From: a virus
Virus record (IMG/VR): IMGVR_UViG_3300025127_000283
Coordinates: 1-23,781 of that record
Reading direction: 5' to 3' (one strand)
Length of the DNA: 23,781 bases
Position 1 is the first letter of the stretch; each line of letters opens with the position of its first letter. The position numbers and the translations under genes are program-made. Under the pieces are notes generated by a model, which worked only from the letters and a program-made list of their open reading frames with translations, did no database searches and had not been told where the DNA came from. Of this stretch, positions 1,624-16,739 are shown one piece after another.

Positions 1624-2270
1624 GCTTTACATTCGATCAACTTAAAACAGCCATTCAAGATTATACAGAAAATGATGAAACAACTTTCGTCAATAATCTC
1701 TCTTTATTTATAAGACAAGCTGAAGAAAGAATATTAAAAAGCGTACAGCTTAGTTTATTTCGTAAAAATGCTACAGCCTCTTGTACTGCAAGTAATAAAT
1801 ATCTTGCTTGTCCCGGGGATTTTTTAGCACCTTTTTCTCTTAGTCTTGCAGGTACAGATGGAGATAAGTTTTTTATAGATTTTAAAGATCCTAGCTTTTT
1901 ACAAACGTATACTCCAGATTCTACAACTACAGGATCTCCAAGGTATTATGCTGTTTTTGATGTTGATAACTTTATATTAGCTCCAACGCCAAATACTACA
2001 TTTACTGCAGAACTTCATTATTTTTATCGACCTACAAGTTTAACTGCAGGAAGTGGTAGCGGAACCACTTGGCTTAGTATAAATGCTGAATTATCATTGC
2101 TTTATGGAGCACTTGTTGAAGCTTATATTTTTATGAAAGGCGAACAAGATATGATGGCATATTACGATAAAAGGTTTACAGAATCTTTATCTGGTTTAAA
2201 AATGCTTGGAGAAGCGAAAGAAACAACAGATGAATACCGCACAGGAAAAGTAATTAGGGCAAAACAATAA
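1620..2270 (+). CDS. Phage connector/adaptor-like structural protein
   Basis: 216 aa. It begins SFTFDQLKTAIQDYTENDET and continues with LFIRQAEERILKSVQL, a helical N-terminus followed by a beta-rich middle (residues ~50-145) and a C-terminal helix containing MKGEQDMMAYYDKRF. This resembles a recurrent marine phage family that I recall being labelled adaptor or virion structural protein. Its position between the gp4-like gene and a set of appendage genes fits a neck or tail component. The ATG overlaps the upstream TGA (ATGA), and its own TAA overlaps the next ATG (TAATG), suggesting coupled translation. The exact role is not established from sequence. Confidence 0.6.
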   Translation: MSFTFDQLKTAIQDYTENDETTFVNNLSLFIRQAEERILKSVQLSLFRKNATASCTASNKYLACPGDFLAPFSLSLAGTDGDKFFIDFKDPSFLQTYTPDSTTTGSPRYYAVFDVDNFILAPTPNTTFTAELHYFYRPTSLTAGSGSGTTWLSINAELSLLYGALVEAYIFMKGEQDMMAYYDKRFTESLSGLKMLGEAKETTDEYRTGKVIRAKQ

Positions 2271-2566
2271 TGTTTAAAATTGATGTAAATGTGCCACAAC
2301 ATGAACAAATTGTAGGCGTCAGAACAACGGAAAACAGGGGATTTACTCCTGAAGAGTTGGCTGAACAATGTGTAGAAAAAATAGTTTCGGTTTCGGATCA
2401 GGCCCATCCCGGCATCAGAGACCAAGCTCATGCTTTCTCAAAGCATGTTGAAAAGCTTGTTGCATACTATATGAGGCAAGCTATTCGCAGTGACCGCACA
2501 ACTGTGTATAATGCAATCAAAGATGCGGGTCATCCCCAACTGGCTGAACTTATAAGGAGACTTTAA
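2270..2566 (+). CDS. Conserved small phage protein, unknown function
   Basis: 98 aa, soluble and mostly helical. Features include VRTTENRGFTPEELAEQC near residue 17, then IRDQAHAFSKHVEKLVAYYM and the C-terminal segment YNAIKDAGHPQLAELIRRL. I recall similar short proteins in the same gene position of uncultured marine phages, but no function is known to me. There is no membrane segment or catalytic motif. The ATG shares one base with the upstream stop, and the ribosome-binding site for the next gene (AAGGAG) lies inside its last codons. Possible roles are an assembly chaperone or a minor virion protein; neither is shown by the sequence. Confidence 0.6.
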   Translation: MFKIDVNVPQHEQIVGVRTTENRGFTPEELAEQCVEKIVSVSDQAHPGIRDQAHAFSKHVEKLVAYYMRQAIRSDRTTVYNAIKDAGHPQLAELIRRL

Positions 2567-2567
2567 T

Positions 2568-3017
2568 ATGGCCTTTTCTGGAAACTTTATGTGTACTTCT
2601 TTTAAGCAACAATTGCTTACGGGTAGTCATAATTTTACAAACTCATCTGGCGACACTTTTAAACTCGCTCTATATGACAACAATGCTTCGTTTAACGCTG
2701 CTACTACAGCATACACTTCATCAAACGAAGTGAGTAACTCTGGCTCGTATAGCGCGGGTGGAGGGGCGTTAACAAACGTAACACCCACAACTTCTGGAAC
2801 AACTGCTCTAACAGATTTTGCAGACAAGACATATACTTCTGCAACAATTACTGCTCGCGGTGCGTTGATTTATAACACTACAACAGGCGCAGGATCAGGA
2901 ACTACAGATACAGTTGTTGTATTAGACTTTGGGTCAAACAAGTCTTCTACTTCTGGCGACTTTCAGATTGTGTTTCCAACGGCTGACGCAAGTAGCGCGA
3001 TTATTCGTATCGCGTAA
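2568..3017 (+). CDS. Conserved phage structural protein (149 aa)
   Basis: A Thr/Ser/Gly/Ala-rich, beta-predicted protein with no charged helices, typical of a virion decoration or tail-appendage protein. Landmarks are FKQQLLTGSHNF, DTFKLALYDNNASF, a central TTSGTTALTDFADKTYTSAT, and a conserved-looking end, DFQIVFPTADASSAIIRIA. This pattern is familiar from marine phage structural genes. The start codon has a good AAGGAG site 9 bases upstream. It sits 1 bp after the preceding stop. I cannot say whether it is a capsid or a tail component. Confidence 0.6.
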   Translation: MAFSGNFMCTSFKQQLLTGSHNFTNSSGDTFKLALYDNNASFNAATTAYTSSNEVSNSGSYSAGGGALTNVTPTTSGTTALTDFADKTYTSATITARGALIYNTTTGAGSGTTDTVVVLDFGSNKSSTSGDFQIVFPTADASSAIIRIA

Positions 3018-3029
3018 GGCAGTCTACCC

Positions 3030-3956
3030 GTGACAAACATCACAGGTTGGGGACGTGGAGCATGGGGCGAGGGTGCTTGGAATGAAGCGACCCCTGTTCG
3101 TGTTGGTCATACTCTCAACGGTTGGGGTGGGTTAAGTTGGGGGGAAACCTCTTGGGGCGGTGAAAAATCTACTCTTGCAGCAATGCAGGGTCAGGTTGGC
3201 ACCGCTGTTGTTCGAGAAGATATATCTGTATCTGTTACGGGATTAGGTGCTACCGCAAGTGTTGGTAGCGTCACAGTACAAGGCAATAACACTGTAAATC
3301 CTGCGGGTCTTGCCGCTACAGGTGGTGTTGGGCAAGTCACTCTTGTTACGGAACAGAATGTTCCACTTACAGGATTACAAGGTCAAGGGTTTGTAGGCAC
3401 TGCCACAGTTGTTCAAGGTGGTGGTGTTGATGTTGTTGTTTCAGGACTATCAGCTACATCTGCGGTTGGATCTGGCACAAGTATTATAATCGGTGTAAAC
3501 GTACCACCCACAGGCATTGCAGCTACAGGTGGTGTAGGTTCAGTTACGATTAGCGAAGGTGTTGGTATTGATGTTACACCAACTGGTGTTGCAGCTACTG
3601 GAGGCGTTACTGAACCGACTATAATTGGTACGGCACCAAATGTTGCAGCCACAGGTGTAGCGGGTACAGGTACAGTTGGGCCTGTTACAGTATTAACATC
3701 ACAAGTTGTGCCAGTTTCACCAGATAACTTGATTGCAACGGCATCAGTTGGTACAGTTACGGTGGCTACGATCAGCAAAGCTCATGTAACTGGTGTTAGC
3801 ACTAGCGCATTAGTTGGTTCTGTGATAGTTTACGAAACAATAGTTCCTGCACCGGGTACTTCTTGGTCTACGGTGGGTCCAAATCCGGGCAGCACATGGA
3901 CAGAGGAAACACCAAGTCCGGGGACAACTTGGACAACGATAGGCGAAGCAGCGTAA
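3030..3956 (+). CDS. Trp-Gly and Gly/Val/Thr repeat appendage protein
   Basis: 308 aa with a clear modular build. Residues 5-45 hold six tryptophans in Gly-Trp motifs (GWGRGAWGEGAWNE and GWGGLSWGETSWGG). Residues ~63-270 consist of about nine degenerate 22-26 residue repeats around the core tGlxATgxVGxVTV. Residues 272-308 carry three PGTSW/PGSTW/PGTTW repeats. No catalytic residues or membrane segments were seen. The composition indicates an extended beta-structured fibre or spike that is exposed on the virion. The start is a GTG 12 bp after the previous gene, with only a weak AAGG upstream. The same repeat core occurs in the genes at 832 and 13801, linking three virion genes. Receptor or glycan contact is an inference. 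Confidence 0.65.
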   Translation: MTNITGWGRGAWGEGAWNEATPVRVGHTLNGWGGLSWGETSWGGEKSTLAAMQGQVGTAVVREDISVSVTGLGATASVGSVTVQGNNTVNPAGLAATGGVGQVTLVTEQNVPLTGLQGQGFVGTATVVQGGGVDVVVSGLSATSAVGSGTSIIIGVNVPPTGIAATGGVGSVTISEGVGIDVTPTGVAATGGVTEPTIIGTAPNVAATGVAGTGTVGPVTVLTSQVVPVSPDNLIATASVGTVTVATISKAHVTGVSTSALVGSVIVYETIVPAPGTSWSTVGPNPGSTWTEETPSPGTTWTTIGEAA

Positions 3957-3968
3957 AGGTAAGGAAAA

Positions 3969-4649
3969 ATGGCAACCTATACAACAAACAGCGGTATAAA
4001 GAAGATCGCTACAGGTGACGAATCTGGAACATGGGGTACGTCAACCAATACAAACTTCGATATTATTGACCGTGTTGCAGCGGGTGTCGGAGACATTACA
4101 CTCTCAGGAACAACGCATACACTGACCACCTCAGATGGTTCTGCATCAGATGGACAGTACCATGTGTTAGTTTTAGGCGGCTCACCTTCTGGGACAAATA
4201 CCATAACAGTTTCACCTAATGACGCAAAGCGTATGTACTTTGTAAAAAATAACTCAGGTCAGTCTGCTATATTCTCACAAGGATCTGGTGCAAATGTAAC
4301 CGTAGCAAACGGCGCATCAGCCATAATTTACTGTGACGGTGCAGGATCTGGCGCAGCGGTTGTTGATATAGGGGCTGCGTTACCTTTATCAGGAGCGTTG
4401 CTTGCAGCGAATAACTTATCAGATGTTGCAAATGCATCAACAGCAAGAACAAATTTAGGAGTTGCGATTGGGTCAAATGTGTTGGCTTATGATGCAAACC
4501 TACAGGGATTTGTAACGGCTCTTACCCTACCTACGTCCGACGGGACTAACGGGCAAGCGTTGGTTACAAATGGCAGTGGTACTATCTCTTTCGGTAGTGC
4601 CGGAATTGGAACAGGTAAGGCCATCGCAATGGCTATTGTGTTTGGATAA
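3969..4649 (+). CDS. Tail-fibre-like protein (226 aa)
   Basis: The N-terminus (TNSGIKKIATGDESGTWG) followed by a beta-rich region with DAKRMYFVKNNSGQSAIF resembles phage fibre proteins. Residues 149-165 carry the segment NLSDVANASTARTNLGV, a motif very common in tail-fibre repeats across phages. The C-terminus ends GTGKAIAMAIVFG, a hydrophobic tail that I recall at the ends of marine phage fibre proteins. No chaperone or peptidase domain is visible. A purine-rich AAGGTAAGG ribosome-binding region precedes the ATG. It lies between two other appendage genes. Probable role: a short tail fibre or fibre-tip component. Confidence 0.65.
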   Translation: MATYTTNSGIKKIATGDESGTWGTSTNTNFDIIDRVAAGVGDITLSGTTHTLTTSDGSASDGQYHVLVLGGSPSGTNTITVSPNDAKRMYFVKNNSGQSAIFSQGSGANVTVANGASAIIYCDGAGSGAAVVDIGAALPLSGALLAANNLSDVANASTARTNLGVAIGSNVLAYDANLQGFVTALTLPTSDGTNGQALVTNGSGTISFGSAGIGTGKAIAMAIVFG

Positions 4650-4655
4650 AGGAGG
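4648..4655 (+). promoter_or_regulatory. Near-perfect Shine-Dalgarno site
   Basis: AAAGGAGG overlaps the TAA of the upstream fibre gene and lies 7 bases before the ATG at 4663. It is the closest match to the 16S rRNA anti-SD sequence among the starts in this window and fixes that start codon. Confidence 0.8.
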
Positions 4656-4662
4656 CTAACCG

Positions 4663-5040
4663 ATGGCAGCACCGAACATTGTAAATGTAAGCTCTATACT
4701 AGGAAAAACAGATCAGTATGCTCTTACAACGACTTCACAGACTACAATCTTAAACAACGCAGCATCGAGTGATAATGTTCTGAAAGTGAATATGATCCAA
4801 GTTGCAAACGTAGATGGCACAAATGCTTGTGACATTACGATAGATGTACACAGCGCGGCATCAGGTGGCGGCACTGCATTCTCATTGATTGCCACTGCAT
4901 CTGTAGCGGCTGACTCTTCACTGGTAGTGTTGGATAAGAACACAGCGATATACCTAGAAGAGAACATGTCTATCACTGCGACAGCAGGGACTGCTAACGA
5001 TCTGGAAGTAATAATCAGTTACGAGCAAATAACTGACTAA
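4663..5040 (+). CDS. Small beta-rich virion protein, strong translation start
   Basis: 125 aa, beta-predicted throughout and rich in Ala, Thr, Ser and Val. Landmarks are NIVNVSSILGKTDQYALTT at the start, then KVNMIQVANVDGT and IYLEENMSITATAGTANDLE near the end. I recall this family as a frequent small structural protein of marine phages. Its ribosome-binding site, AAAGGAGG at 4648-4655 with 7 bases to the ATG, is the strongest in the window, which suggests a protein made in many copies. The upstream stop lies within that site. No other functional motif is visible. Confidence 0.6.
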   Translation: MAAPNIVNVSSILGKTDQYALTTTSQTTILNNAASSDNVLKVNMIQVANVDGTNACDITIDVHSAASGGGTAFSLIATASVAADSSLVVLDKNTAIYLEENMSITATAGTANDLEVIISYEQITD

Positions 5041-5051
5041 GGAGAGTTGTT

Positions 5052-7622
5052 GTGAAGGTAATTGGCAACTTAACCAAAGACGGCATCATCAGGGCTGCGG
5101 TCAGTGAAGGATTAGCTATTTCTTCGGCTGTTGATTCAACTGCTGTTTTTCTTGACGCTGATATAAGTTATTCCAAAGTAATTTTTGATAGCAGTAATAA
5201 CAAATTTGTAGTTGCCTTCAAAAGAATTAGTGACAGTAAAGGCTGTGCCGTTGTTGGAACTGTGAGTGGAACCTCAATAAGTTATGGCTCTGTTGTAGAG
5301 TTCGAACAAGGAAATACTCAATATATTTCAGGTGCATTTGATAGTAACAGTAATAAAGTTGTAATTACTTATCGTGATTATAATGACAGTATACATGGTA
5401 AAGCTATTGTTGGAACCGTATCTGGTACGTCAATTAGTTTTGGAACCGCTGTAACATTTAACGCAGCAGAAACTGAGGAAATTTTTACTACTTTTGACAG
5501 TAACAGTAATAAAGTTGTAACTGGTTATAGAAATGTCGGAGACAGTAGACATGGGTATGCTATTGTTGGGACGGTTTCAGGAACATCAATTTCATTTGGT
5601 TCTGCTGTTGAATTTGAAAATGCAAGAGTCAGTAGCGAAGGAATTACTTTTGATAGCAACAGCAACAAGGTTGTTATTACTTATAGAGATCACGGCAACT
5701 CAAACTATGGCACAGCAATAATTGGAACGGTTTCAGGAACATCAATTAGTTTTGGTACGCCTGTAGTTTATCATAGCACTAGTTCTCAATATAACACACC
5801 CGCTTTTGATACTAGTTCAAATAAAGTGCTTGTTGCTTTTAGAGATGGAGCGCAGTCTGATATAGGCCACGCGATAGTCGGCACAGTAAGTGGTACGTCA
5901 ATTTCGTTTGGTACTGTTGTTGAATTTGAAACTAATGCAACAACTTATATCTCAAATGTTTTTGATAGTAACGCTAATAAGTTTGTAATAGGTTATCAAG
6001 ACGGTGGAGATTCAAATTATGGCACTTTAATTGAGGCAACCGTTAGCGGAACTTCAGTTACTTTTGGGTCTTCTGTTCGAGCTAATGCTTCTGCTGTGGG
6101 GGTAAACACCTCATTGGCTTTTGATTCAAATTCTAAAAAAGTGATTTTTACTTATAGAGATGAAACCAATAGCAAGGGTAGATCAGTCCTTTATCAAGTA
6201 GGTTACAGCCAAGCCACAGGCGGCACGATAGCCGATGGTTCGGCTGTCATTGTAAATGCAAATGGGACGGTGAGTAGTGTAGCTGCATCATCAGTTTCTG
6301 AGGTAGTTGGCACAAAAGCTGTGTTTGAATCGGCACAGGCTGACTATACTAGGATTGCTTATGATCCTGTAAACAACAAAGTTTTTATTGCGTATGTAGA
6401 CGCAGGAGACAGCAGTAAGGGCAAATGTGTAGTTGGGACTATCTCTGGAACCTCTATTACATATGGAAGTGTAACTACTTTTCATAATAATAGCACAGCT
6501 TTTGTTGATACAGTTTATGATACCAATGCAGGAAAGTTTGTAATTGTTTATTATGATGGAGATAATTCTGGATACGGAACATCGGTTGTAGCAACAGTAT
6601 CAGGTAATTCTGTAACTTTTGGATCTGACGTTATTTTTAATAGTGCAAACTGTAGCTACATGTCTTTAATTTATTCTACAGCAGCACAAAAAGTTGTTGT
6701 TTCGTATAGATCAACTTCAGACGTAGGTAAGTCTCAAGTAGGAACAGTTTCAGGAACAAGTATTAGTTGGGGTAGTCAATATGACTATAACACAGGAGCT
6801 ACAGGGCCACATATACACTCAACCTATGACGTAGCTAATGACAGGTTAGTAGTAGTGTATAAGGACGAAGGAAATTCTAATTATGGTACAGCCCGTGTTG
6901 GATCAATAAGTGGAACGGCAATTACTTGGGGGTCAGAAACTGTTTTTAACGCAGGTAACTATACAGACAATGTAAGTTCAGCTTACGACGCGTCAGCCGA
7001 AAAAATAATAATAACATACAGAGATAATGCCAACTCTAATTATGGCACTGCTATAGTTGGGACAGTAAGCGGCACAGCTATATCCTTTGGGTCGGAAGCT
7101 GTAGTGTTAGCTTCTAATTCAACAAATTTTAATATTGTTTATCAGCCTGATGCCTCATTCAATGTTATAGTTTTTAGGGATGCGGGAAATGGTAACATAA
7201 TTAGATTTGTCACAGCGACTATCAGTGGAACATCACTTAGTTTTGGCACTGTGACTCAACTGAATGGCGAGCAGGGATACTATATGGATCAGGTATGGGA
7301 CCCTACAGCTAAAAAAATAATTGTTGTGTATAGAGCTAGTTCAAACTCTGATTATGGAACAGCGGTAGCATACACTCCTGCTCACAGTGCTCCTAACCTC
7401 ACCTCCGAAAACTTCGTAGGGTTTATGGACGGTGCAGCGTTAGACGGCACGAATGGCGAGATACTTTCTTCTTGCTCAATTGCAAGAAATCAAACAAGCT
7501 TAACAGCAGGGCAGACATACTTTGTGTCACCCACTGATGGGGCGTTAAGCACATCAGCAGGAAGTCCTTCCGTTACGGCGGGAACTGCTATATCATCCAC
7601 AGAGATAATAGTGAAAGGTTAG
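5052..7622 (+). CDS. Fibre/appendage protein with two seven-bladed beta-propellers (copy A)
   Basis: 856 aa made almost entirely of ~52-residue repeats, each with the core FDSxxNKVVIxYRD then GxAIVGTVSGTSISFG and a VxF strand. Residues ~31-386 contain seven blades and residues ~419-777 another seven. In both units the seventh blade lacks its last strand, and a matching strand lies before blade one (AVFLDADI; KAVFESAQ), the expected ring closure of a beta-propeller. The linker (TIADGSAVIVNANGTVS) copies the N-terminal module of the sister proteins. Residues ~782-856 form the C-terminal domain shared with copies B and C (SLTAGQTYFVSPTDG to STEIIVKG). The GTG start follows AAGGAG by 7 bases. Tail or surface receptor binding is inferred; no catalytic residues were recognised. 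Confidence 0.75.
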   Translation: MKVIGNLTKDGIIRAAVSEGLAISSAVDSTAVFLDADISYSKVIFDSSNNKFVVAFKRISDSKGCAVVGTVSGTSISYGSVVEFEQGNTQYISGAFDSNSNKVVITYRDYNDSIHGKAIVGTVSGTSISFGTAVTFNAAETEEIFTTFDSNSNKVVTGYRNVGDSRHGYAIVGTVSGTSISFGSAVEFENARVSSEGITFDSNSNKVVITYRDHGNSNYGTAIIGTVSGTSISFGTPVVYHSTSSQYNTPAFDTSSNKVLVAFRDGAQSDIGHAIVGTVSGTSISFGTVVEFETNATTYISNVFDSNANKFVIGYQDGGDSNYGTLIEATVSGTSVTFGSSVRANASAVGVNTSLAFDSNSKKVIFTYRDETNSKGRSVLYQVGYSQATGGTIADGSAVIVNANGTVSSVAASSVSEVVGTKAVFESAQADYTRIAYDPVNNKVFIAYVDAGDSSKGKCVVGTISGTSITYGSVTTFHNNSTAFVDTVYDTNAGKFVIVYYDGDNSGYGTSVVATVSGNSVTFGSDVIFNSANCSYMSLIYSTAAQKVVVSYRSTSDVGKSQVGTVSGTSISWGSQYDYNTGATGPHIHSTYDVANDRLVVVYKDEGNSNYGTARVGSISGTAITWGSETVFNAGNYTDNVSSAYDASAEKIIITYRDNANSNYGTAIVGTVSGTAISFGSEAVVLASNSTNFNIVYQPDASFNVIVFRDAGNGNIIRFVTATISGTSLSFGTVTQLNGEQGYYMDQVWDPTAKKIIVVYRASSNSDYGTAVAYTPAHSAPNLTSENFVGFMDGAALDGTNGEILSSCSIARNQTSLTAGQTYFVSPTDGALSTSAGSPSVTAGTAISSTEIIVKG
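5142..6209 (+). repeat. Seven tandem blade repeats, propeller A1
   Basis: Six complete ~52-aa units and a seventh lacking its last strand, at 156-nt spacing. Adjacent units still share identical DNA: a 22-nt match at 5343-5364 and 5499-5520, and a 21-nt match at 5571-5591 and 5727-5747, each pair exactly 156 nt apart. Other units use different synonymous codons. Confidence 0.8.
6307..7380 (+). repeat. Seven tandem blade repeats, propeller A2
   Basis: A second set of seven units in the same protein. It is more diverged than A1: units begin YTRIAYDP, FVDTVYDT, YMSLIYST, PHIHSTYDV, DNVSSAYDA, NFNIVYQP and YYMDQVWDP. A preceding strand, KAVFESAQ, would complete the last blade. Confidence 0.75.
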
Positions 7623-7625
7623 ACA

Positions 7626-7883
7626 ATGAAAACTATCGTGGAAACTTCAACTAAATTAAGCAAGTATCTACTTGCAGATGACGTAGTAATCACAGCAACA
7701 GCGAATGATATCACAGTGGGTGATCCTGCTCAGTTTATTATCGCTGATCTAAACAGTGGCAATGCGACTATTACTGAGAACGTAACCAACGCACCAGAAG
7801 ATTGGGTGGGCAACAAGTATAAGTTAGATGGCACAACGTGGTCAGCTAATCCTGATTGGGTAGAGCCAGAAGAAGAAGAGTAG
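7626..7883 (+). CDS. Small conserved phage protein between fibre genes
   Basis: 85 aa, acidic. The order of elements is IVETSTKLSKYLLADDVV, a beta segment, DPAQFIIADLNSGNATI, then DWVGNKYKLDGTTWSANPDW, ending in an acidic tail PEEEE. I recall short proteins with this layout beside tail-fibre genes in cyanophages and other marine phages, with no assigned function. It follows fibre gene A after 3 bp and precedes fibre gene B by 8 bp, so it is produced from the same message. It could be a fibre-associated virion protein or a fibre-assembly helper. There is no signal peptide or TM segment. Confidence 0.6.
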   Translation: MKTIVETSTKLSKYLLADDVVITATANDITVGDPAQFIIADLNSGNATITENVTNAPEDWVGNKYKLDGTTWSANPDWVEPEEEE

Positions 7884-7891
7884 GACTCCAC

Positions 7892-9358
7892 ATGCGTATC
7901 ATTGGTAACGACCCAAGCGTACCAAGACAGACACAAGAAGTCGCCAGTGGTACGCTGCCAAACGGCAAGCCTGTAGTTGTAAATTCTGACGGGACTGTAA
8001 GTGTTGTTTCTGAAACAACCGTTACTCAATCGGTTGGTGCCGCAGTAGCTAGAGATGACGGTGGAGATGCTACTTTAGGAACTTATTACTCCGCAGGTTT
8101 TGATAGCTCTAATAATAAAGTTATTTTTGTCTACAGAGATAATGGGGGTTCAGGAACTGGCAGAGCAATTGTTGGAACTATATCTGGCACAAGCATAAGT
8201 TTCGGCACACCTGTTGAATTTCAAAATAATAATATTGGAGAAACATCCGTAACTTTTGATAGCTCTAATAACAAAGTCTTTATAGCTTATCGGCATGCAG
8301 CTAATAGTAGTTATGGCACTGGAGTTGTTGGAACTGTATCTGGAACTTCTATAAGTTTCGGAACTCCTGTTTCTTTTAATAATGGATATACAACAAAAGT
8401 ATCTGCAACTTTTGATTCAAGTAATAATAAAGTTGTTGTAGCTTACAGAGACGATTCTCAAAGCGATCATGGTAAAGCGATTGTTGGAACAATAAGCGGT
8501 ACTTCCGTATCATTTGGCTCAGAGGTTACTTTTAACGCACAAGGTACGCATCAGTTAGCGGCAGGATTTGATAGCAATGCAAATAAAGTAGTCATTGCTT
8601 ATAGAGATTCAGGTAATAGTGAGTATGGAACAGCCATAGTTGGTACGGTTTCAGGAACAAGTATTAGCTTTGGTTCAGAAGTAGTTTTTGAAAGCGCAGA
8701 ATGTCGTAATTACGGTATTGCTTTTGATTCAAGTAGTCAAAAAATTCTTATTGGTTTTGAATTAGAATCTAGTGGCACAGGTTACGCTATCGTAGGAACT
8801 GTAAGCGGAACAAGTATTAGCTTTGGTTCTAAGTCTCAATTCACAACAAACCAAGTAGATGTAATAAGGTTAACCTATGATTCTGTTGCTCAAAAAGTTG
8901 TAATTCTTTACAGAAACCAAAGCACCTCTCCCTATTCTGGAAGGATTTTCCCTGCAACTATAAGCGGCACTTCTGTTTCATTTGGAACTGAAACAACTTG
9001 GACATCTACAAGCTTTTCTGAACCTGCTTTGACATATGACTCAAATCAAGGCAAAGCTGCTTTTGTATATGCAGACGCAAACAACAATTATTATTTTACT
9101 GCAAGAGTTTTTCAAACAGGTTACACTCAACAAAACCTCACCTCAGAGAACTATATCGGCATATCTCGTAGCGGCGCAGCAGACACAGCAGGAGCTATTA
9201 TAGATACGCAAGGTGCAATAGCCGACAACTTATCTGGACTGACAGCAGGGCAAAGCTACTACGTTCAGAATGATGGCACATTAGGTACAACGGCTGATGA
9301 TCCTAGCGTCTTTGCAGGGACGGCTGTATCGGCAACTAAACTTATCGTGAAAGGGTAA
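7892..9358 (+). CDS. Fibre/appendage protein with one seven-bladed beta-propeller (copy B)
   Basis: 488 aa, the simplest member of the paralogous trio. The N-terminal module at residues ~14-50 (SGTLPNGKPVVVNSDGTVSV) is followed by seven blades and then the shared C-terminal domain (LTSENYIGISRSG, then LTAGQSYYVQNDG and ending TKLIVKG). The ATG at 7892 is preferred over the upstream in-frame TTG at 7856, because that extension would be an Arg-rich stretch read through the end of the previous gene, and the conserved module starts just after this ATG. It is likely a receptor-facing virion protein, by analogy with the other propeller-bearing appendage proteins. Copy B looks like the ancestral single-propeller form from which A and C could be built. 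Confidence 0.75.
   Translation: MRIIGNDPSVPRQTQEVASGTLPNGKPVVVNSDGTVSVVSETTVTQSVGAAVARDDGGDATLGTYYSAGFDSSNNKVIFVYRDNGGSGTGRAIVGTISGTSISFGTPVEFQNNNIGETSVTFDSSNNKVFIAYRHAANSSYGTGVVGTVSGTSISFGTPVSFNNGYTTKVSATFDSSNNKVVVAYRDDSQSDHGKAIVGTISGTSVSFGSEVTFNAQGTHQLAAGFDSNANKVVIAYRDSGNSEYGTAIVGTVSGTSISFGSEVVFESAECRNYGIAFDSSSQKILIGFELESSGTGYAIVGTVSGTSISFGSKSQFTTNQVDVIRLTYDSVAQKVVILYRNQSTSPYSGRIFPATISGTSVSFGTETTWTSTSFSEPALTYDSNQGKAAFVYADANNNYYFTARVFQTGYTQQNLTSENYIGISRSGAADTAGAIIDTQGAIADNLSGLTAGQSYYVQNDGTLGTTADDPSVFAGTAVSATKLIVKG
8034..9126 (+). repeat. Seven tandem blade repeats, propeller B
   Basis: Seven units with starts GTYYSAGFDSS, ETSVTFDSS, KVSATFDSS, QLAAGFDSN, NYGIAFDSS, VIRLTYDSV and EPALTYDSN. 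The last is truncated after its third strand, and the strand GAAVARDDG before unit one can close the ring. Confidence 0.78.
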
Positions 9359-9360
9359 CT

Positions 9361-11883
9361 ATGTTAAGACGTATAGGGGCTGAAGAAGGTGGTGAGTTTA
9401 AAGCGATAGCCAGTGGCGCGGTGTCGAGTGGTAAACCTGTGATTGTGAACAGTGATGGGACGGTAAGTCTGCCTGAATCTGTCACTGGAGGAAATGGCAC
9501 TCCAAACACATTTTCAGGTGGAAATAATGCTAACCATAATGGCATGTCCGAAGTAGGTAATAGTAAATTTGTAATTGCTTACAGAGATTCAGGTAATTCA
9601 AATCACGGAACTGCTGTCGTTGCAACAGGAAGTGGAACAACACTTAGCTATGGTACTCCTGTAGTTTTTGATAGTCAGGACTGTAGAGAACATGTAGTTG
9701 TGTATGATTCAAGCACAGACAGAGTTGCGATTTTTTATTATGGCACAAGTGATGACAAGTCATATGCTATTGTTGGCACGGTAAGTGGCACGTCTATAAG
9801 TTTTGGCACAAGAGTAGAATTTGAACCTAATGAGATGGGAGATGGTTCTGGAGTATTTGATCCAGTAAACAATAAAGTTGTATTTTTTTATAAAGATGTT
9901 GGAAGCAATACTAATTATGGAAGATATATAATAGGGACAATAAGCGGTACTTCTATTTCTTTAACAACTCCGACTGCTTGGCATAGCGCAACTACAAGAC
10001 AGATTGCTGCGGTTTATGATGCTACAAACAGTAAAATGGTTGTTGCTTACAGAGATGGTGCTGCGTCAAGTCATGGTAAAATGTTTGTTGCAGATCCGGG
10101 TGCTTCTTCTTTAACATTTGGAAGTGAGCAAACATTTGCTTCAGCCACTACTTATCCACATGAATTAGTAGATGATACAGTAAACGGTAAATTAATAATT
10201 TTTTATGGCAATGCAAGTCAGCAAGGTTCGGCAAGAGTAATAACAGTTGATGGAGCAAATAAAACTATTTCAGCAGGTAGTGAACTAGTTTATGAAGCAG
10301 GCTCTACTGATACAACAGGTTCGGCTGCTTACAATACTCTAGCAGGAAAAGCACAGTCTATGTGTAAAGATCAAGGCGATTCCAACAAAGCTAAACTATA
10401 TTTATTTACCGTATCTGGCACAAGTATTACACTTGATTCTACCACAGTGATTGATACCAACGGTTGTGACAGATTTGCAGGTGATTTTAGCCCTTCTTTG
10501 GGGGCATCTGTTTTTGTTTACACCGATGAAGGAACATCTCAAGGAGAGGCTTTTGTTACCAAACTTGGGTATAACACACTCACCTCAGAAAACTACATTG
10601 GTATGTCGAGGGGCGCGGTCACACCATCAGTCTTGGGGACTGAACTTACATATGTAAGTGAAAATGCTTCTGAAAATATTCTAGCTTTTGACAGCAGTAA
10701 TAACAAAGTTGTGTTTGCATACACTGACGGATCTAATAGTCCTCAAAAAGGCGTGGCAGTAGTTGCTAATGTATCAGGGACTACTATGACCGCAGGATCA
10801 GCGGTAACTTTTGCAAACGTAAATACAAGTATGGGAGGAATGGCTTTTGACAGTTCTAATAATAAAATAGTCATAGCCTATAGGGATGGAAGCGACACTT
10901 ACGGAAAAGCGGTAGTCGGCACTGTTTCTGGTACGTCAATATCTTTCGGATCGCCTGTAACTTTTAAATCTGGAAATACCAATAACATAGATTGTTGTTT
11001 TGATTCCAACGCTAATAAAATTTATATTTCTTTCGGTTTTAATAACACAGGAATTGGTATTGTTGGAACAGTGAGTGGGACATCAATATCATTTGGCTCA
11101 GAGCAAATTTGGATAGGAAGTGAAGCTACTTATATAAAAAATACTTTTGATAGCTCTAACAATAAAGTTATTACTGTTTATAGAGATGATGGTGGTAGCT
11201 CAAATGGAAAGGCTATTGTCGGAACTATAAGCGGTACTTCAGTTTCATACGGCTCCCCCACTGCATTTAACTCTGGGTCTACAGGTAACACACGTGTTGA
11301 GTTTGATAGTGCTAATAATAAAGTTGTAATTTTCTTTCAACAAAGCACTTATAAGGCAATAGTTGGCACAGTATCAGGAACATCAATATCTTTTGGTTCA
11401 GAAGTAGAATGGTCGAGTGTTGAAAACCATGATAATTATGGCGTGTCTTTTGATCCGACTTTAGGTAAAATGATTGTTATATATAAAACAACTGGCAACA
11501 TAACAGCGTCAAAACAAGGAACTGTTTCAGGAACTTCAATATCTTTTAGCGATCAACAAGACAACCTAACTTCAGGGCAGGTTTATACTCCTAGAATAAC
11601 CTACGATACCAATTCAAAAGTAAGTGTGCTTGTCTACAGATTGACTACAAACAGTAACTATGGAACGACAAGAGTTTACAATCCAGAGATTAGAGGCCAA
11701 GCAACTAACGGTCAAGCTGCATCGGTAGACATCATTGGATCAGTTAGCACAAACCAAAGTAGCCTCACCGCAGGACAACAATACTTTGTACAAACAGATG
11801 GAACGATAAGCACAACAGCGGATAGCCCAAGTGTACTTGCAGGGACTGCTATCTCTGCAACCGAACTCGTAGTAAAAACATAG
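9361..11883 (+). CDS. Fibre/appendage protein with two seven-bladed beta-propellers (copy C)
   Basis: 840 aa. The N-terminal module (SGAVSSGKPVIVNSDGTVS, residues ~18-36) precedes seven diverged blades. A linker (~residues 404-425) reads LTSENYIGMSRGAV, the first part of the family's C-terminal domain, and is followed directly by a second, better-conserved set of seven blades. The true C-terminal domain closes the protein (SLTAGQQYFVQTDG to ATELVVKT) but lacks the LTSEN beginning. This arrangement indicates fusion of two B-like genes with loss of most of the first C-terminal domain. Blade lengths in the second propeller range from about 48 to 53 residues. The ATG is 2 bp after gene B with AAAGGG upstream. 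Receptor binding is inferred. Confidence 0.75.
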   Translation: MLRRIGAEEGGEFKAIASGAVSSGKPVIVNSDGTVSLPESVTGGNGTPNTFSGGNNANHNGMSEVGNSKFVIAYRDSGNSNHGTAVVATGSGTTLSYGTPVVFDSQDCREHVVVYDSSTDRVAIFYYGTSDDKSYAIVGTVSGTSISFGTRVEFEPNEMGDGSGVFDPVNNKVVFFYKDVGSNTNYGRYIIGTISGTSISLTTPTAWHSATTRQIAAVYDATNSKMVVAYRDGAASSHGKMFVADPGASSLTFGSEQTFASATTYPHELVDDTVNGKLIIFYGNASQQGSARVITVDGANKTISAGSELVYEAGSTDTTGSAAYNTLAGKAQSMCKDQGDSNKAKLYLFTVSGTSITLDSTTVIDTNGCDRFAGDFSPSLGASVFVYTDEGTSQGEAFVTKLGYNTLTSENYIGMSRGAVTPSVLGTELTYVSENASENILAFDSSNNKVVFAYTDGSNSPQKGVAVVANVSGTTMTAGSAVTFANVNTSMGGMAFDSSNNKIVIAYRDGSDTYGKAVVGTVSGTSISFGSPVTFKSGNTNNIDCCFDSNANKIYISFGFNNTGIGIVGTVSGTSISFGSEQIWIGSEATYIKNTFDSSNNKVITVYRDDGGSSNGKAIVGTISGTSVSYGSPTAFNSGSTGNTRVEFDSANNKVVIFFQQSTYKAIVGTVSGTSISFGSEVEWSSVENHDNYGVSFDPTLGKMIVIYKTTGNITASKQGTVSGTSISFSDQQDNLTSGQVYTPRITYDTNSKVSVLVYRLTTNSNYGTTRVYNPEIRGQATNGQAASVDIIGSVSTNQSSLTAGQQYFVQTDGTISTTADSPSVLAGTAISATELVVKT
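9499..10575 (+). repeat. Seven tandem blade repeats, propeller C1
   Basis: Seven diverged units. Unit one lacks the usual FDS start (HNGMSEVGNSKFVIAYRD), and units four to six have lost the consensus VSGTSISFG in part. The seventh unit ends at VTKLGYN without its last strand. Confidence 0.68.
10636..11688 (+). repeat. Seven tandem blade repeats, propeller C2
   Basis: Seven units following the strand TELTYVSENAS. Units three and five are shortened in the loop between strands two and three, while the GTVSGTSISFGS strand pair is retained. The seventh unit ends at GTTRVYNPE. Confidence 0.72.
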
Positions 11884-11890
11884 GTGATGA

Positions 11891-13801
11891 ATGCCACTAA
11901 CCAAACTTCAATTCCGCCCCGGTGTCAATCGAGAGACCACTTCTTACACCAATGAGGGCGGTTGGTTTGACGTAGACAAGGTGCGCTTTCGTTTTGGTAT
12001 GCCTGAGAAGATTGGTGGTTGGGAGAAGTTTACGAATGCTTCGTATTTAGGCACAGCAAGGGCTATGCATCCTTGGGTGGCGTTAGATAATAGCCGACTC
12101 ATTGGCATTGGCACCTCATTAAAATATTACATCAACCAAGATGGTGGTGCTTTTAATGATATTACACCAATAAGAAACACAACATCTGCGGGTGACGTAA
12201 CCTTTGCTGCTACCAATGGGTCATCAGTAATTACAGTAACAGATACAAATCACGGCGCAGTGGTAAATGATTTTGTTACCTTCAGTGGGGCTGCAAGTCT
12301 TGGTGGCAACATTACAGCGGCGGTGCTTAACCAAGAATACTATGTTACTCAAGTAATAAATGATAATAGCTACAAAATCGTAGCCAGAGCCGCAGGCACC
12401 ACAATCTCACAAATTACGGTCAACGGTGCTTTATCTCCAAGCCAAGTCAATGCAAACTCTTCTGACTCCGGCAACGGAGGTAGTTCTACAGTTGGCGCAT
12501 ATCAGGTCAGTGTTGGCTTAGATACAACCGCAACAGGCGCAGGTTGGGGCGTCGGTACTTGGGGTCGTAACGGTTGGGGCCAAGCTGCTACCACACCTAT
12601 TGTTACAAATACCTTGCGTATCTGGTCACACGATAACTTTGGAGAAGACTTACTTATTAACGTGCGTAATGGCGGCATATATTATTGGGATAAAACAGGC
12701 GGTTTTGCTACACGGGCGGTTAGTTTAGACTCTCTTGCCGGATCTACAAAAGCACCGACTATTGCTAAACAGATTATGGTGTCAGACAGAGACAGGCACA
12801 TTATTGCCTTTGGTTGTGACACTGAAACAAATCCCGGTGTTCAAGACCCATTAGTTATACGTTTTTCTTCTCAAGAGTCTTTAACTGATTGGGCAACAAC
12901 AACGGCAAATACTGCAGGTGAATTAAGGCTTGGATCTGGTTCAGAGATCGTAACAGCAGTTGAGACCAGACAACAAATATTAGTTTACACTGACGAATCC
13001 TTATACGCTATGCAGTTTTTAGGACCACCGTTCACCTTCGGTGTAAACCTTGTGTCAGAAAACATTACAACCATGGGGCCATTGTGTGCCGTGGCTGTAG
13101 AAGACAACGTATTTTGGATGGGGCTTAAAGAGTTTTATGTATATGGTGGTACGGTACAAAGATTGCCTTGCTCTGTGAGAGACTTTGTATTTGATGATTT
13201 TAATCTTTTACAACGTGAAAAAATTGTAGCTGCAACAAATACGGCTTTTTCTGAAATATGGTGGTTTTATCCTTCTGCATCTAGCGACAATAATGATAGG
13301 TATGTGGTTTATAATTATGAACAAAAGGTTTGGTATTATGGTTCACTTGCAAGAAGCTTTTGGATGGATCGTGGTATCTTCGACAACCCTATTGCAGCAG
13401 GGCCAAACAACTATCTCTACACTCAAGAATCTGGATTTGATGACGATGGGTCTGCACTTACTGCTTATATTGAATCAAGCCAACTTGACATAGGAGATGG
13501 AGAGCAGTTTTCTTTTATCCGTCGCATGATACCAGATTTAACATTTAGAGGATCGACTGCAGGTAGTCCATCTGCAAATATAACTGTAAAAACAAGAAAT
13601 TTCCCCGGTGGTAATTATCTACAATCAACATCAAGTGCTGTAACGAAGACAGCGTCTGTGCCTGTCGAACAGTTTACAGATCAAGTTCATTTAAGATTAC
13701 GTGGGCGTAGTTTTGCAATGCGTATAGAGTCTACAGCAACAGGCGTAGGTTGGAGATTGGGATCTCCAAGACTTGATGTACGGCCTGATGGGAGGCGTTA
13801 G
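11891..13801 (+). CDS. P22 gp10-like packaged-DNA stabilisation / tail hub protein
   Basis: 636 aa. The N-terminus, LTKLQFRPGVNRETTSY followed by VDKVRFRFGMPEKIGGW, is the pattern of the family related to P22 gp10, the protein that plugs the portal after DNA packaging and forms the tail hub. P22 gp10 is shorter (~470 aa). Extra material lies at residues ~94-200, where a beta module (VITVTDTNHGAVVNDFVTF, then NGA) resembles small domains inserted in many phage proteins, and at 218-230, where GWGVGTWGRNGWG repeats the Trp-Gly theme of the gene at 3030. The C-terminal half contains LRIWSHDNFGEDLL and the end LRGRSFAMRIESTATGVGW. Together with the gp4-like adaptor it argues for a short P22-type tail. 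The start has AGGTG just upstream. Confidence 0.68.
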   Translation: MPLTKLQFRPGVNRETTSYTNEGGWFDVDKVRFRFGMPEKIGGWEKFTNASYLGTARAMHPWVALDNSRLIGIGTSLKYYINQDGGAFNDITPIRNTTSAGDVTFAATNGSSVITVTDTNHGAVVNDFVTFSGAASLGGNITAAVLNQEYYVTQVINDNSYKIVARAAGTTISQITVNGALSPSQVNANSSDSGNGGSSTVGAYQVSVGLDTTATGAGWGVGTWGRNGWGQAATTPIVTNTLRIWSHDNFGEDLLINVRNGGIYYWDKTGGFATRAVSLDSLAGSTKAPTIAKQIMVSDRDRHIIAFGCDTETNPGVQDPLVIRFSSQESLTDWATTTANTAGELRLGSGSEIVTAVETRQQILVYTDESLYAMQFLGPPFTFGVNLVSENITTMGPLCAVAVEDNVFWMGLKEFYVYGGTVQRLPCSVRDFVFDDFNLLQREKIVAATNTAFSEIWWFYPSASSDNNDRYVVYNYEQKVWYYGSLARSFWMDRGIFDNPIAAGPNNYLYTQESGFDDDGSALTAYIESSQLDIGDGEQFSFIRRMIPDLTFRGSTAGSPSANITVKTRNFPGGNYLQSTSSAVTKTASVPVEQFTDQVHLRLRGRSFAMRIESTATGVGWRLGSPRLDVRPDGRR

Positions 13802-14097
13802 TGTCCCGAAATTTAATTTTACCTTTTTTCGCTGTACCTCCAACGCAGTACGATCAACAATATTTCGCAAATCTTACGCGAAGTTTTGCTATTTATATGG
13901 AGCAACAACAAAATCCCGGCGAAGAAAGAGCAACGAGACTCACTTTAACTGATTTGCAAACAGATGATTCTGGTCTTGAAATTGGTGCTTTGTTCCAACA
14001 AGATGGATTTGTAAAAATAACCCGAACAAATGTTCCCCATGTTCGTGGTTCTAGTGCAACAGGATCTGTGGGGACAGTAACGGTGACAACAACATGA
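13801..14097 (+). CDS. Small virion protein with C-terminal Gly/Val/Thr repeat
   Basis: 98 aa. The start, SRNLILPFFAVPPTQYDQQY, leads into a helix (NLTRSFAIYMEQQQNPGEE), then a beta part (ATRLTLTDLQ, GALFQQDGFVKIT), and ends SSATGSVGTVTVTTT. That end is the same repeat core seen in the genes at 832 and 3030. The GTG start overlaps the previous TAG by one base and is fixed by GGGAGG 6 bases upstream. I recall the family from marine phage tail regions without known function. It could be a tail or fibre attachment protein next to the hub. Confidence 0.62.
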   Translation: MSRNLILPFFAVPPTQYDQQYFANLTRSFAIYMEQQQNPGEERATRLTLTDLQTDDSGLEIGALFQQDGFVKITRTNVPHVRGSSATGSVGTVTVTTT

Positions 14098-14324
14098 GTG
14101 ATGATACTATTCTTATCATGTCTAATGGCTCCAAATGGAAGCCATCCACGAGCCAAGACTTAATTCATTGTGCTTCTTGTAATAATGCAGTTGATACCCC
14201 CGAAGAAATTGCATCATATCCAGACGGTAATTGCCCCCAATGCGGCAATACTTGGACAGGATCTGAATCAAAAGGGGTTCGTATTTTCGCAACTGCACCA
14301 GAGGCTATATCAGGAGAAGCCTGA
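14094..14324 (+). CDS. Zinc-ribbon-like small phage protein
   Basis: 76 aa with two Cys pairs, C26-x2-C29 and C47-x2-C50 (HCASC and NCPQCG), separated by 17 residues: a zinc-ribbon arrangement. The region between contains EEIASYPDGN, and the remainder after the second knuckle is short (WTGSESKGVRIFATAPEA). The start overlaps the upstream TGA as ATGA. Zinc ribbons in small phage proteins can bind nucleic acid or stabilise a fold; which applies here is unknown. It lies at the border between structural and lysis genes. Confidence 0.65.
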   Translation: MSDDTILIMSNGSKWKPSTSQDLIHCASCNNAVDTPEEIASYPDGNCPQCGNTWTGSESKGVRIFATAPEAISGEA

Positions 14325-14325
14325 T

Positions 14326-14802
14326 ATGGACCCCGTTAGCTGTGTAGCTCTAGCGACAGGGGCGTACAAGACGATCCGTGCGGCTATTTCTACGGGCAAA
14401 GATTTACAAGACATGACGGGAACTTTGAGTCAGTGGGGCAAGGCTTTTTCTGACTTTAGTAATCTAGAAGAAAGAGAAAAGAACCCACCTTTTTGGAAGA
14501 AAACATTCAAGGGATCTGATGAAGAAACTGCTCTAGAAATCTTTGCTAACAAAAAGAAAATGGAACAAATGAGGGCTGAAATCAAAGATCATATATCTTG
14601 GACATATGGCCCTAGTGCTTGGAAAGAAGTCCTGCAAATAGAAGCAGATATGCGCCGAAAAAGAAAACAAGAGCTATACCGAAAACAAGAACGAATAGAT
14701 GCCATGATAAATTTTGCTATAGGAGCTACAATATTTGTAATAAGTGGAGGCATCTTATTTGTTATTTTCTACTATTTGGGCAAATGGCAAGGTAGGTGGT
14801 AA
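14326..14802 (+). CDS. C-terminally anchored membrane protein (158 aa)
   Basis: Starts MDPVSCVALATGAYKTIRAA and is largely helical and highly charged in the middle (AKKKMEQ-like stretches, RRKRKQELYRKQERID). It has a single hydrophobic segment near the C-terminus (residues ~127-151, FAIGATIFVISGGILFVIFY). The landmark ISWTYGPSAWKEVL lies just before the charged helix. I recall this protein type in marine phages beside lysis genes. The ATG at 14326 was chosen over an in-frame upstream start at 14170, because the extra 52 residues would overlap the zinc-ribbon gene in another frame and look non-coding, while AGGAG precedes 14326. It could be a minor virion membrane protein or take part in lysis. 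Confidence 0.65.
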   Translation: MDPVSCVALATGAYKTIRAAISTGKDLQDMTGTLSQWGKAFSDFSNLEEREKNPPFWKKTFKGSDEETALEIFANKKKMEQMRAEIKDHISWTYGPSAWKEVLQIEADMRRKRKQELYRKQERIDAMINFAIGATIFVISGGILFVIFYYLGKWQGRW

Positions 14803-14964
14803 ATGTGGGTATTGTTGTGGTTACAAGTGGTAAGTGGGAGCTTCGACCACTATCATGTGGGTAGTTACTCTAGCGAAGAAGCTTGTAAAGAGGCACAAAA
14901 AGAAGCAAAAGTTCTTGTTACAAATCAAAACTCAAAAGTAGTATGCATTAAAATAGAACGGTGA
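14803..14964 (+). CDS. Tiny protein with hydrophobic N-terminus and two cysteines (53 aa)
   Basis: Begins MWVLLWLQVVSGSFDHYHVG, a short hydrophobic N-terminus like a signal sequence, then a helix rich in Glu/Lys/Ala (SSEEACKEAQKEAKVLV) and ends VVCIKIER. The two cysteines (27, 48) could form a disulfide outside the cytoplasm. The ATG directly follows the previous TAA, with GTAGGTGG upstream. I recall similar ~55-aa proteins in this position in marine phages. The coupled overlap with the next gene supports it being real. It may be a small secreted or inner-membrane lysis accessory; function unknown. Confidence 0.6.
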   Translation: MWVLLWLQVVSGSFDHYHVGSYSSEEACKEAQKEAKVLVTNQNSKVVCIKIER

Positions 14965-15074
14965 TACTCAAGGAATGGCGCAATAAATACATTGTATATG
15001 ACAAAAACGGAAAAGTGGTTATAATAAGCCGTGATAAACGAGTTGTTATGGCATACGCGAGGTCAAAGAAATGA
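14961..15074 (+). CDS. Tiny basic protein (37 aa)
   Basis: A GTG start overlaps the previous stop in a GTGA junction, and its own stop overlaps the next start in an ATGA junction, so the frame exactly fills the space between two genes. The product is MILKEWRNKYIVYDKNGKVV and continues with IISRDKRVVMAYARSKK: basic, with two beta strands and a helix. No motif or function is recognised. The tight double overlap is the main evidence that it is translated. Confidence 0.5.
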   Translation: MILKEWRNKYIVYDKNGKVVIISRDKRVVMAYARSKK

Positions 15075-15418
15075 CAGAATTTGAAAAAGCTGATTTAAAT
15101 AACAACGGTGTTATTGAAAAGGCTGAATGGAATAAAATAGCGTTAGAAGACCGTAGGCTTGAGATGATTGACCGTGATCTTAAACGAAACGCAGAGCGTA
15201 GATTTACAGGATTTGCCCTCGCAGGCATGTTGATATATCCGTTTATTATATTACTTGCATCTGTGCTTGGATTTGACAAAGCAGCAAGTTTAATCACAGA
15301 TATAGCAAGTGTATATGTAATTGCAGCTAGTGGCGTTGTGGCTGCTTTTATGGGATTTAACGCCTACAGTGCAAAAACTGAAAGTAAGAAAACAAGCATT
15401 CAGATGGAGGGAGACTGA
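15071..15418 (+). CDS. EF-hand-like two-TM membrane protein, holin-region
   Basis: 115 aa. Residues 8-19 (DLNNNGVIEKAE) match a 12-residue EF-hand calcium loop: D8, N10, N12, G13, I15 and E19 occupy positions 1, 3, 5, 6, 8 and 12. A charged helix follows (EDRRLEMIDRDLKRNAERR), then two TM segments at ~45-67 and ~79-98, and a short charged tail. There is only one loop, so a full paired EF-hand domain would need dimerisation. The size and two-TM topology would suit a class II holin or antiholin, and the next gene is a holin. The start has GAGG 9 bases upstream. Confidence 0.62.
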   Translation: MTEFEKADLNNNGVIEKAEWNKIALEDRRLEMIDRDLKRNAERRFTGFALAGMLIYPFIILLASVLGFDKAASLITDIASVYVIAASGVVAAFMGFNAYSAKTESKKTSIQMEGD

Positions 15419-15804
15419 TGCTAGATTTAATAGGAAAACTGGTTGATCCGGTAAGTAATATCCTTGACAAGGTAATAGAAGACAAAGATCAAAAGGCTAG
15501 ATTAGCTCACGAAATTGCAACAATGGCTGAGAAAAACTCTCAAGCTCTTATGATGCAACAACTTAAAATTTTGCAAGCTGATGCACAAGGAAACTGGTTT
15601 CAAGCATCGTGGCGACCCCTTATTGGATGGATCGCAGGCATATCGCTCGGTATAAATTACATGATCGCCCCAATTGCTTTGGGCTTTGGTTTTGAAATAC
15701 CACAGGCAGATATGTCAGTAATGATGCCATTGCTCTTAGGTATGCTTGGTATCGGTGGAATGCGTTCATTTGATAAGCTTAAAAAGACGGACAGTAAAAA
15801 ATGA
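15418..15804 (+). CDS. Holin, 3TM superfamily
   Basis: 128 aa. Residues ~57-71, GNWFQASWRPLIGWI, are the hallmark of the 3TM holin family found in phages and gene transfer agents. An amphipathic helical N-terminus (residues 1-55) is followed by hydrophobic segments at ~66-90 and ~99-117 and a basic tail (KLKKTDSKK). Holins form inner-membrane lesions that release the endolysin at a set time. The ATG overlaps the upstream TGA, and the site GGAGGGAG directly before it is strong. The neighbouring GH19 lysin supports the role. Confidence 0.85.
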   Translation: MLDLIGKLVDPVSNILDKVIEDKDQKARLAHEIATMAEKNSQALMMQQLKILQADAQGNWFQASWRPLIGWIAGISLGINYMIAPIALGFGFEIPQADMSVMMPLLLGMLGIGGMRSFDKLKKTDSKK

Positions 15805-16070
15805 GTGACTTAAAAATACCAGTAGCATTAGTTTTTGCTATGGCAGTGCAATTAGTGGGTTTGGTGTGGTATATTAGCAACATTGTGCATGATATTGAAC
15901 ATCTTCAAGGCCAAATGTCGGCACAAGAGGACATTATTGAGCTTCTCAACGCCGATGTAAACGATCTTTGGGCTTTTTGCACGTTTACTGAAAACAAATG
16001 GGCTGAAAGTTATACTTCTGACATGGTGTATGAGCGTGTTTGTGGGTCTAAGGAGTTTGTAAATGAGTGA
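15801..16070 (+). CDS. One-TM spanin-like or lysis accessory protein
   Basis: 89 aa. An N-terminal TM segment (residues ~6-28, PVALVFAMAVQLVGLVWYIS) is followed by a predicted coiled coil (HDIEHLQGQMSAQEDIIELLN) and a Cys-containing C-terminal part (FCTFTENKW and YERVCGSKE). This topology fits an i-spanin or holin-associated protein: anchored in the inner membrane with a helical periplasmic stalk. No lipoprotein o-spanin partner with a lipobox was found nearby, so the spanin label is tentative. It overlaps the holin by 4 bases and the endolysin by 8. Confidence 0.6.
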   Translation: MSDLKIPVALVFAMAVQLVGLVWYISNIVHDIEHLQGQMSAQEDIIELLNADVNDLWAFCTFTENKWAESYTSDMVYERVCGSKEFVNE

Positions 16071-16671: not shown

Positions 16672-16739
16672 TTTAAGTGTGACACTTTGAAATTAGGAAA
16701 TAGTATGTTAAAAAGCACATATGATACTCGGAGCGCCTA
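16672..16739 (+). other. 68-bp gap between lysis and ejection genes
   Basis: The only gap above 15 bp between plus-strand genes. It contains a perfect odd-centred dyad, a weak -10-like TATGAT (16720-16725) without a good -35, and an 11-codon mini-ORF (ATG 16705, TAA 16738-16740) preceded by TTAGGAAA. The mini-ORF stop overlaps the next ATG as TAATG. GGAG at 16730-16733 serves the downstream gene. No terminator hairpin was found. Confidence 0.5.
16675..16687. promoter_or_regulatory. Perfect 6-1-6 dyad, possible operator
   Basis: AAGTGTGACACTT is a perfect inverted repeat with a single central base. It cannot fold as a hairpin with a 1-nt loop, so it is more like a protein-binding site than a terminator. 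It lies 3 bp after the endolysin stop and 52 bp before the first ejection gene. A 13-bp dyad can arise by chance. Confidence 0.3.

Follow-up and report, generated by a model that had tools for sequence, protein, structure and literature searches.

An array of predicted seven-bladed beta-propellers as a candidate tail-fibre adhesin of a marine phage, diversified by ring exchange

Three neighbouring genes in 23,781 nucleotides of viral DNA (IMG/VR record IMGVR_UViG_3300025127_000283, positions 1 to 23,781; this whole stretch is called the window here) encode long runs of a repeat of ~52 residues, and they raise the question of what these repeats build and what they do for the phage. A preliminary description had proposed five seven-bladed beta-propellers, distributed 2+1+2 over three tandem paralogous genes, that would act as a surface array for receptor binding. 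Here the three genes are referred to as slots A, B and C (Table 1). For gene B, a TTG start at 7856 (500 aa) was set aside, and ATG 7892 (488 aa) is the most likely start because the alignment has a conserved MRIIGND start there. A scan of IMG/VR gave 429 candidate relatives; L-numbers below denote relative loci on metagenome contigs, some of which share a contig or a sample. A search of genome contigs returned only three MAG contigs, which were of no use for host assignment. A Maricaulis MAG contig (L131, NZMJ01000088.1, 4,149 bases) is apparently a phage fragment binned with a bacterium, and L118 and L131 have equal length and match position.

Table 1. Layout of the module and its immediate neighbours in the window
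Feature	Position	Strand	Remarks
Fibre-type gene, 226 aa	3969..4649	+	Putative dock; C-terminus ...GTGKAIAMAIVFG; phrog_31104 (E 2e-15) and a weak tail fibre match
orf125, module gene immediately 5' of slot A	4663..5040	+	
Slot A gene, 856 aa	5052..7622	+	2 rings of 7 blades
Slot A head, first half of the N-terminal scaffold segment	5052..5135	+	89% DNA collinearity with L028 up to 5131
A ring 1, inside the N-terminal scaffold segment	5136..6224	+	7 blades
A ring 2	6312..7403	+	7 blades
Slot A tail	7404..7622	+	94% DNA identity to L028 from 7395
orf85, conserved module gene between slots A and B	7626..7883	+	
Slot B gene, 488 aa	7892..9358	+	1 ring; start ATG 7892 by alignment; AlphaFold model m02732c1f39b6
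B ring	8012..9133	+	7 blades; pLDDT ~95-98
Slot B tail	9134..9358	+	First residues are the conserved border NLTSENYIG
Slot C gene, 840 aa	9361..11883	+	2 rings; AlphaFold model m5022634f1bd0
Slot C head	9361..9468	+	Last residues DGTVS; similarity to L028 and L038 stops at 9467
C ring 1	9469..10566	+	7 blades
C ring 2, inside a loop of the C-terminal scaffold segment	10621..11688	+	7 blades
Slot C tail	11689..11883	+	About 85-94% DNA identity to L038 and L028
P22 gp10-like tail hub ('stabilization protein')	11891..13801	+	Fixed right neighbour; phrog_3287 (E 8e-69)

A blade model built from the seven blades of gene B alone recovered those seven and found 14 more in each of A and C, which is the total of 35 and the 2+1+2 arrangement proposed earlier; the runs are interrupted at ring boundaries only, and 300 shuffled proteins gave two weak matches in total. 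The blades are ~52 residues long and spaced by about 48-54 residues. In each ring the seventh blade lacks the usual VSGTSISFG strand, and a matching strand stands just ahead of blade 1 (ETTVTQSVG in B). This is the closure signature that had been read from the sequence, and AlphaFold models the strand in B with a pLDDT of ~91. The B ring itself was predicted with a pLDDT of ~95-98 and both rings of gene C with about 85-95, including the most diverged ring of all five; the AlphaFold models are those of B and C, and the rings of gene A are 40-51% identical to the B ring by sequence comparison. Foldseek aligned the B ring with complete seven-bladed lectins (target TM 0.70-0.81), the best full-ring PDB matches being the seven-bladed Photorhabdus lectins, and matched gene C to double-propeller proteins. 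Furthermore, blade number is quantised in the relatives: among 190 complete ORFs on viral contigs, 140 have 7 blades and 27 have 14, none has 8 and none more than 14. The other 23 fall below 7 or 14, mostly at 6 or 13, and are read as undercounts of diverged, weak blades. The structural claim stands because blade counts, AlphaFold models and PDB fold matches concur: the five rings, with seven blades in each, are predicted to be beta-propellers closed by an N-terminal strand that completes blade 7.

Pfam, PHROG and PDB sequence searches with the rings found no real family, and neither phmmer nor a profile search of PDB chains matched a lectin. The preliminary description was right in setting the rings apart from Kelch, WD40 and Asp-box repeats, with no such Pfam match above the cut-off and no such motif. 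PF18050 (Cyclophil_like2) scored above its cut-off in C (2.5e-7) but aligns with only ~30 residues of the repeat, and was judged a false positive; it also does so on the blade repeat of relatives of the gene at 9361-11883, and is a likely source of wrong automatic annotation.

How the rings are held was examined in an alignment of 29 single-ring relatives. First comes a conserved head that ends in DGTVS after about 36 residues, then the ring, and last a conserved tail of about 74 residues that begins with LTSENYIG. Slot clusters, delimited by sequence similarity, have their own N-termini (MKxxGNxxKDG in A, MRIIGNDPxxPRQ in B and MLKRIGAEExGEFK in C), and the flavour of the tail is specific to each slot type. 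In A-type two-ring genes the head is split by ring 1 (VSEG / GGTIADGxxVIVNANGTVS), in C-type genes the tail is split by ring 2 (ENYIGMSRG / RGxVADG), and in L083 and L127 a ring splits the second tail loop. That loop holds an unrelated five-repeat YVTN-like propeller, with repeats of ~52 residues, in five further loci; these inserts lie at L016:4464-6728, L027:6670, L030:4621 and L085:1617, and also in L017. A plain 2+1+2 duplication in tandem is rejected on the ground that second rings split the scaffold, and do so at defined loops. Two of the five rings are insertions in such loops.

With the rings removed, the joined head and tail matched Phage_cement_2 (PF09956) in 11 of 14 cases (best E 1.6e-5), and gave weaker matches to other cement and head-decoration families. 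Among the alignments listed the match is collinear and covers most of the model; among the matches listed the scores are 13-18.5 bits, below the curated cut-off of 24. Head alone, tail alone or the two in reversed order gave no match to Phage_cement_2, nor did the joined scaffold of gene A of the window, and AlphaFold predictions of the scaffold are poor (pLDDT 30-60). The relation to cement proteins is distant and tentative because the scores are below the cut-off and the gene A scaffold is without a match; head and tail may form one split, distantly cement-like domain with rings inserted. Any resemblance to PF09956 decoration proteins would lie in the collinear match of the joined halves; here the domain is interrupted by a ring of ~370 residues and is sited among tail genes.

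This match to a capsid-decoration family, which requires both halves in the right order, would suit a scaffold that sits on the capsid and displays the propellers for non-specific surface attachment, in the manner of phi29 gp8.5 or T4 Hoc, and decoration proteins can indeed bind carbohydrates (PMC7602432). The surroundings of the genes argue otherwise. The module has a fibre-type gene on one side and a P22 gp10-like hub on the other, and homologues of the hub in phages DSL-LC04 and HTVC027P are 41% and 35% identical. The C-terminus of the fibre-type gene (STGKAIAMA[IM]VFG) recurs in 70 loci, joined to N-termini of more than 15 types, and it travels with the module, as does orf125, which is present in 77 of 118 loci and whose homologues in phages DSL-LC04 and S-CBWM1 bear the annotation 'putative lectin'. 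The gene orf85 occurs in 95 of the 118 loci, and its homologue next to gene vBLenPICBM2__49 of phage ICBM2 is annotated as tail assembly chaperone or tail fiber protein. Elsewhere among the relatives, fibres with stalk repeats carry the head-ring-tail unit at their C-terminal end, or the unit is embedded in the fibre stalk itself (L086, L108, L090 and L096), and stalk segments alternate with propeller units in one protein of more than 1,700 residues. Given this context, we regard capsid decoration as improbable.

The same module is found in phages with different tails. L036 (IMGVR_UViG_3300002483_000007, 99.6 kb), a contig with T4-like neck, sheath-stabiliser and terminase genes, carries the entire module with six rings, an orf125 that is 74% identical and orf85, near tail fibre genes. 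As judged from these contigs, the module is portable, occurring in both short-tailed and T4-like phages. The fibre proteins encoded at L090:2-5332 and L096:3-5219 are very long and alternate between stalk repeats and propeller units, diverged units included. In the window, the product of 832-1623 has a C-terminus like a small copper-protein (cupredoxin-like) domain and matches baseplate/fibre connector PHROGs; 3030-3956 encodes a protein of repeated VxGLxATxxVGxVTV units, of which a shorter run is present in 832-1623 and 13801-14097.

Comparison with close relatives reveals how the rings of the window differ from their surroundings. The window is collinear with L028 at 2268-5131, 7395-8016, 9201-9467 and 10579-16758 (86-94% DNA identity); heads, tails and neighbours are kept at ~90% DNA identity, and rings A1, A2, B and C1, four of the five, are replaced. 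Beyond 5131, the similarity of slot A to L028 drops to blade-level matches, and C ring 1 is only 46% identical in DNA to its counterpart at that position and was therefore replaced. C ring 2 is 96% identical in amino acids to that of L028 with a dS of 0.089, against 0.563 for gp10, so that its common ancestry is later than that of the backbone. L038 keeps the B ring, with A and C rings that differ, and the B ring is the only one that the window has in common with L038 and L009 (85% amino acid identity to L009). The nearest relative of A ring 1 is the second ring of L039 (81% identity), which lies in another insertion loop, and that of A ring 2 is the corresponding ring of the T4-like contig L036 (76% identity). 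The window is a mosaic of rings on a collinear backbone.

Similar patterns occur between unrelated loci, where rings of 93-100% DNA identity lie between heads and tails of only 47-70% identity with flanks at the level of unrelated DNA. A 1,116-bp ring is 100% identical in DNA between L076:11459 and L128:5921, with heads at 59%, tails at 70% and flanks at 42-46%; like pairs are L022/L072 (ring DNA identity 99%), L018/L030 (96%) and L099/L116 (93%), and rings at 83-95% identity are also found in unlike contexts. When 124 single-ring proteins were each paired with their nearest relative, the two came from the same slot in 90% of comparisons by tail and 26% of comparisons by ring, against 14% at random, and the Spearman correlation is 0.39 between heads and tails and -0.03 between heads and rings. 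Together, these comparisons of sequence show whole rings moving as cassettes between genes, slots, insertion loops and unrelated phages.

All exchange-bearing relatives are metagenome contigs, in which some apparent exchanges could stem from faulty assembly, and heads and tails are conserved enough to mislead an assembler into joining reads of different phages. However, the slot A form recurs in the separate assemblies L022 and L023 and the slot B form in both L071 and L072, L067 containing a relative at 95%; the joined genes are in frame with seven-bladed rings intact, the pattern persists at 83-95% ring identity, and ring dS is unlike backbone dS. It is thus very improbable that exchange is an assembly artefact. 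Diversity-generating retroelements switch tropism by diversifying receptor-binding proteins. No such system turned up here, with reverse transcriptase found in none of 12 related records (possibly fragments); the variation seen is instead whole-domain exchange.

The ring/tail border itself bears a mark at silent positions. In the 37 proteins that contain every compared motif, codon entropy at LTSENYIG is 0.86 bits, against 1.5-1.6 at LTAGQ, AGTA and GTVSGTSISFG, and for the threonine codon it is 0.41 bits at the border and 1.6-1.8 in other places; the border is unusually conserved at its silent codon positions. Repeated crossover through LTSENYIG would leave low silent-site variation, and a crossover site should show this kind of conservation. 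The same effect could come from selection at the nucleotide level.

Variation is distributed unevenly over the blade. Across 1,262 blades, it peaks in the segment that leads into the first strand and in that strand's first positions (columns 6-14, ~3.1 bits), with a second variable segment in the next-but-one connection (columns 29-36, ~2.5 bits); the connections at columns 18-23 (~1.7 bits) and 44-48 (~1.0 bits) are conserved. In the usual propeller topology, columns 6-14 and 29-36 would be parts of one face, the top. Furthermore, dN/dS is 0.23-0.37 in shared rings, compared with 0.05 in gp10. One-face variation, higher dN/dS and the fibre context point to a putative adhesin with changing selection on its top face.

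The lectins PLL, PLL2-4, PHL and BP39L resemble the rings in whole-ring fold, with seven four-stranded blades, yet are only 8-13% identical, with no detectable sequence relation, and are not described as phage modules in the parts of the literature covered. PLL-type lectins have tryptophan-containing glycan sites between blades (PMC6943638), and the tryptophans of these sites are absent from the rings of A, B and C, whose genes encode 3, 1 and 3 tryptophans, respectively (7 in about 2,190 residues). The surface receptor-binding role proposed at the outset is supported in part and indirectly: the fibre and hub neighbourhood, the fusions to fibre stalks and the variation on one face favour it. 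Binding of a glycan or outer-membrane receptor, as first suggested, would have to do without the site tryptophans of the closest lectins.

Sialidases are also among the Foldseek matches, and phage six-bladed propeller depolymerases exist (PMC11448410), which would be in line with the propellers being depolymerases or sialidase-like glycosidases that degrade capsule or O-antigen. Against an enzyme of this kind, the rings have seven blades, not the sialidase-type six, lectins superpose better (target TM 0.8 versus about 0.55), neither an Asp box nor a FRIP motif is present in the rings, and conservation is lacking in the exposed loops of the variable face. We consider enzymatic propellers highly unlikely.

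Some elements of the array have counterparts in named phages and known systems. The Lentibacter phage vB_LenP_ICBM2, a short-tailed phage of roseobacters with tail fibre functions encoded in its variable end, has a related single-copy protein (vBLenPICBM2__49, AYP28108.1) adjoining the orf85 homologue; it is only ~25-27% identical and is one gene, with no three-slot array and no recognised propeller. Phage DSL-LC04 (Gammaproteobacteria) resembles the window in the fibre C-terminus (71%), orf125 (58%) and the gp10-like hub (41%), but has other adhesins at that site (a ConA-like lectin protein), and no propeller genes were found in it. The 55-59 kb region of its genome (OR003939.1), with the common fibre tip, orf125 and other adhesins, is a possible model of the docking site. 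In T4-type gp38 adhesins, conserved borders let variable receptor-binding segments recombine. The variable units of gp38 are short loops, whereas here they are entire seven-bladed domains of ~1.1 kb, which also occupy nested insertion loops. Metaviromic islands, in which host-recognition genes or domains differ among otherwise similar marine phages, are described without propellers or exchange of complete rings between slots in the portions of that work covered (PMC3909814), and lectin-propellers occur in contractile injection systems (PMC12923769). Within the open-access literature, a multi-slot scaffold with entire rings as exchangeable, nestable cassettes, portable between phage types, appears to be novel.

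Together, these observations are best explained, with a probability of roughly 0.7, by a portable tail-fibre adhesin array with three slots, carried by a short-tailed marine phage and diversified by ring exchange. We infer virion location, oligomer state, ligand and recombination pathway as follows. Each slot gene would provide a small scaffold of head and tail that holds one or two seven-bladed propellers, and head and tail probably combine into a single cement-like beta-domain that oligomerises. The array is most likely located at the end of the tail fibre encoded just upstream, where the rings would grip host surface molecules through their variable face. Whole rings would be exchanged by homologous recombination through the short borders DGTVS and LTSENYIG, which would give the phage population combinatorial receptor specificities without mutagenic machinery, and exchange probably alters which bacterial surface the phage grips.

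A broader proposal, to which we give an even chance, is that marine phages of unrelated tail types draw on a common pool of ring cassettes and carry a portable acceptor module that takes 1-6 rings, so that tropism would change as whole receptor-binding domains are plugged in. The acceptor module would comprise the common fibre tip, orf125, the three slots and orf85, and its borders and insertion loops would be evolved features for crossover and acceptance.

Host prediction fails for uncultured marine phages because most of their receptor-binding proteins cannot be recognised. The propellers described here belong to an abundant family that has no matching Pfam or PHROG entry and can be recognised by its blade profile, with scaffold and variable part separable. 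Two questions thereby become testable: how a phage can switch receptor and still assemble its fibres, and whether tropism diversity in the ocean can arise from domain exchange alone, with no mutagenic retroelement involved.
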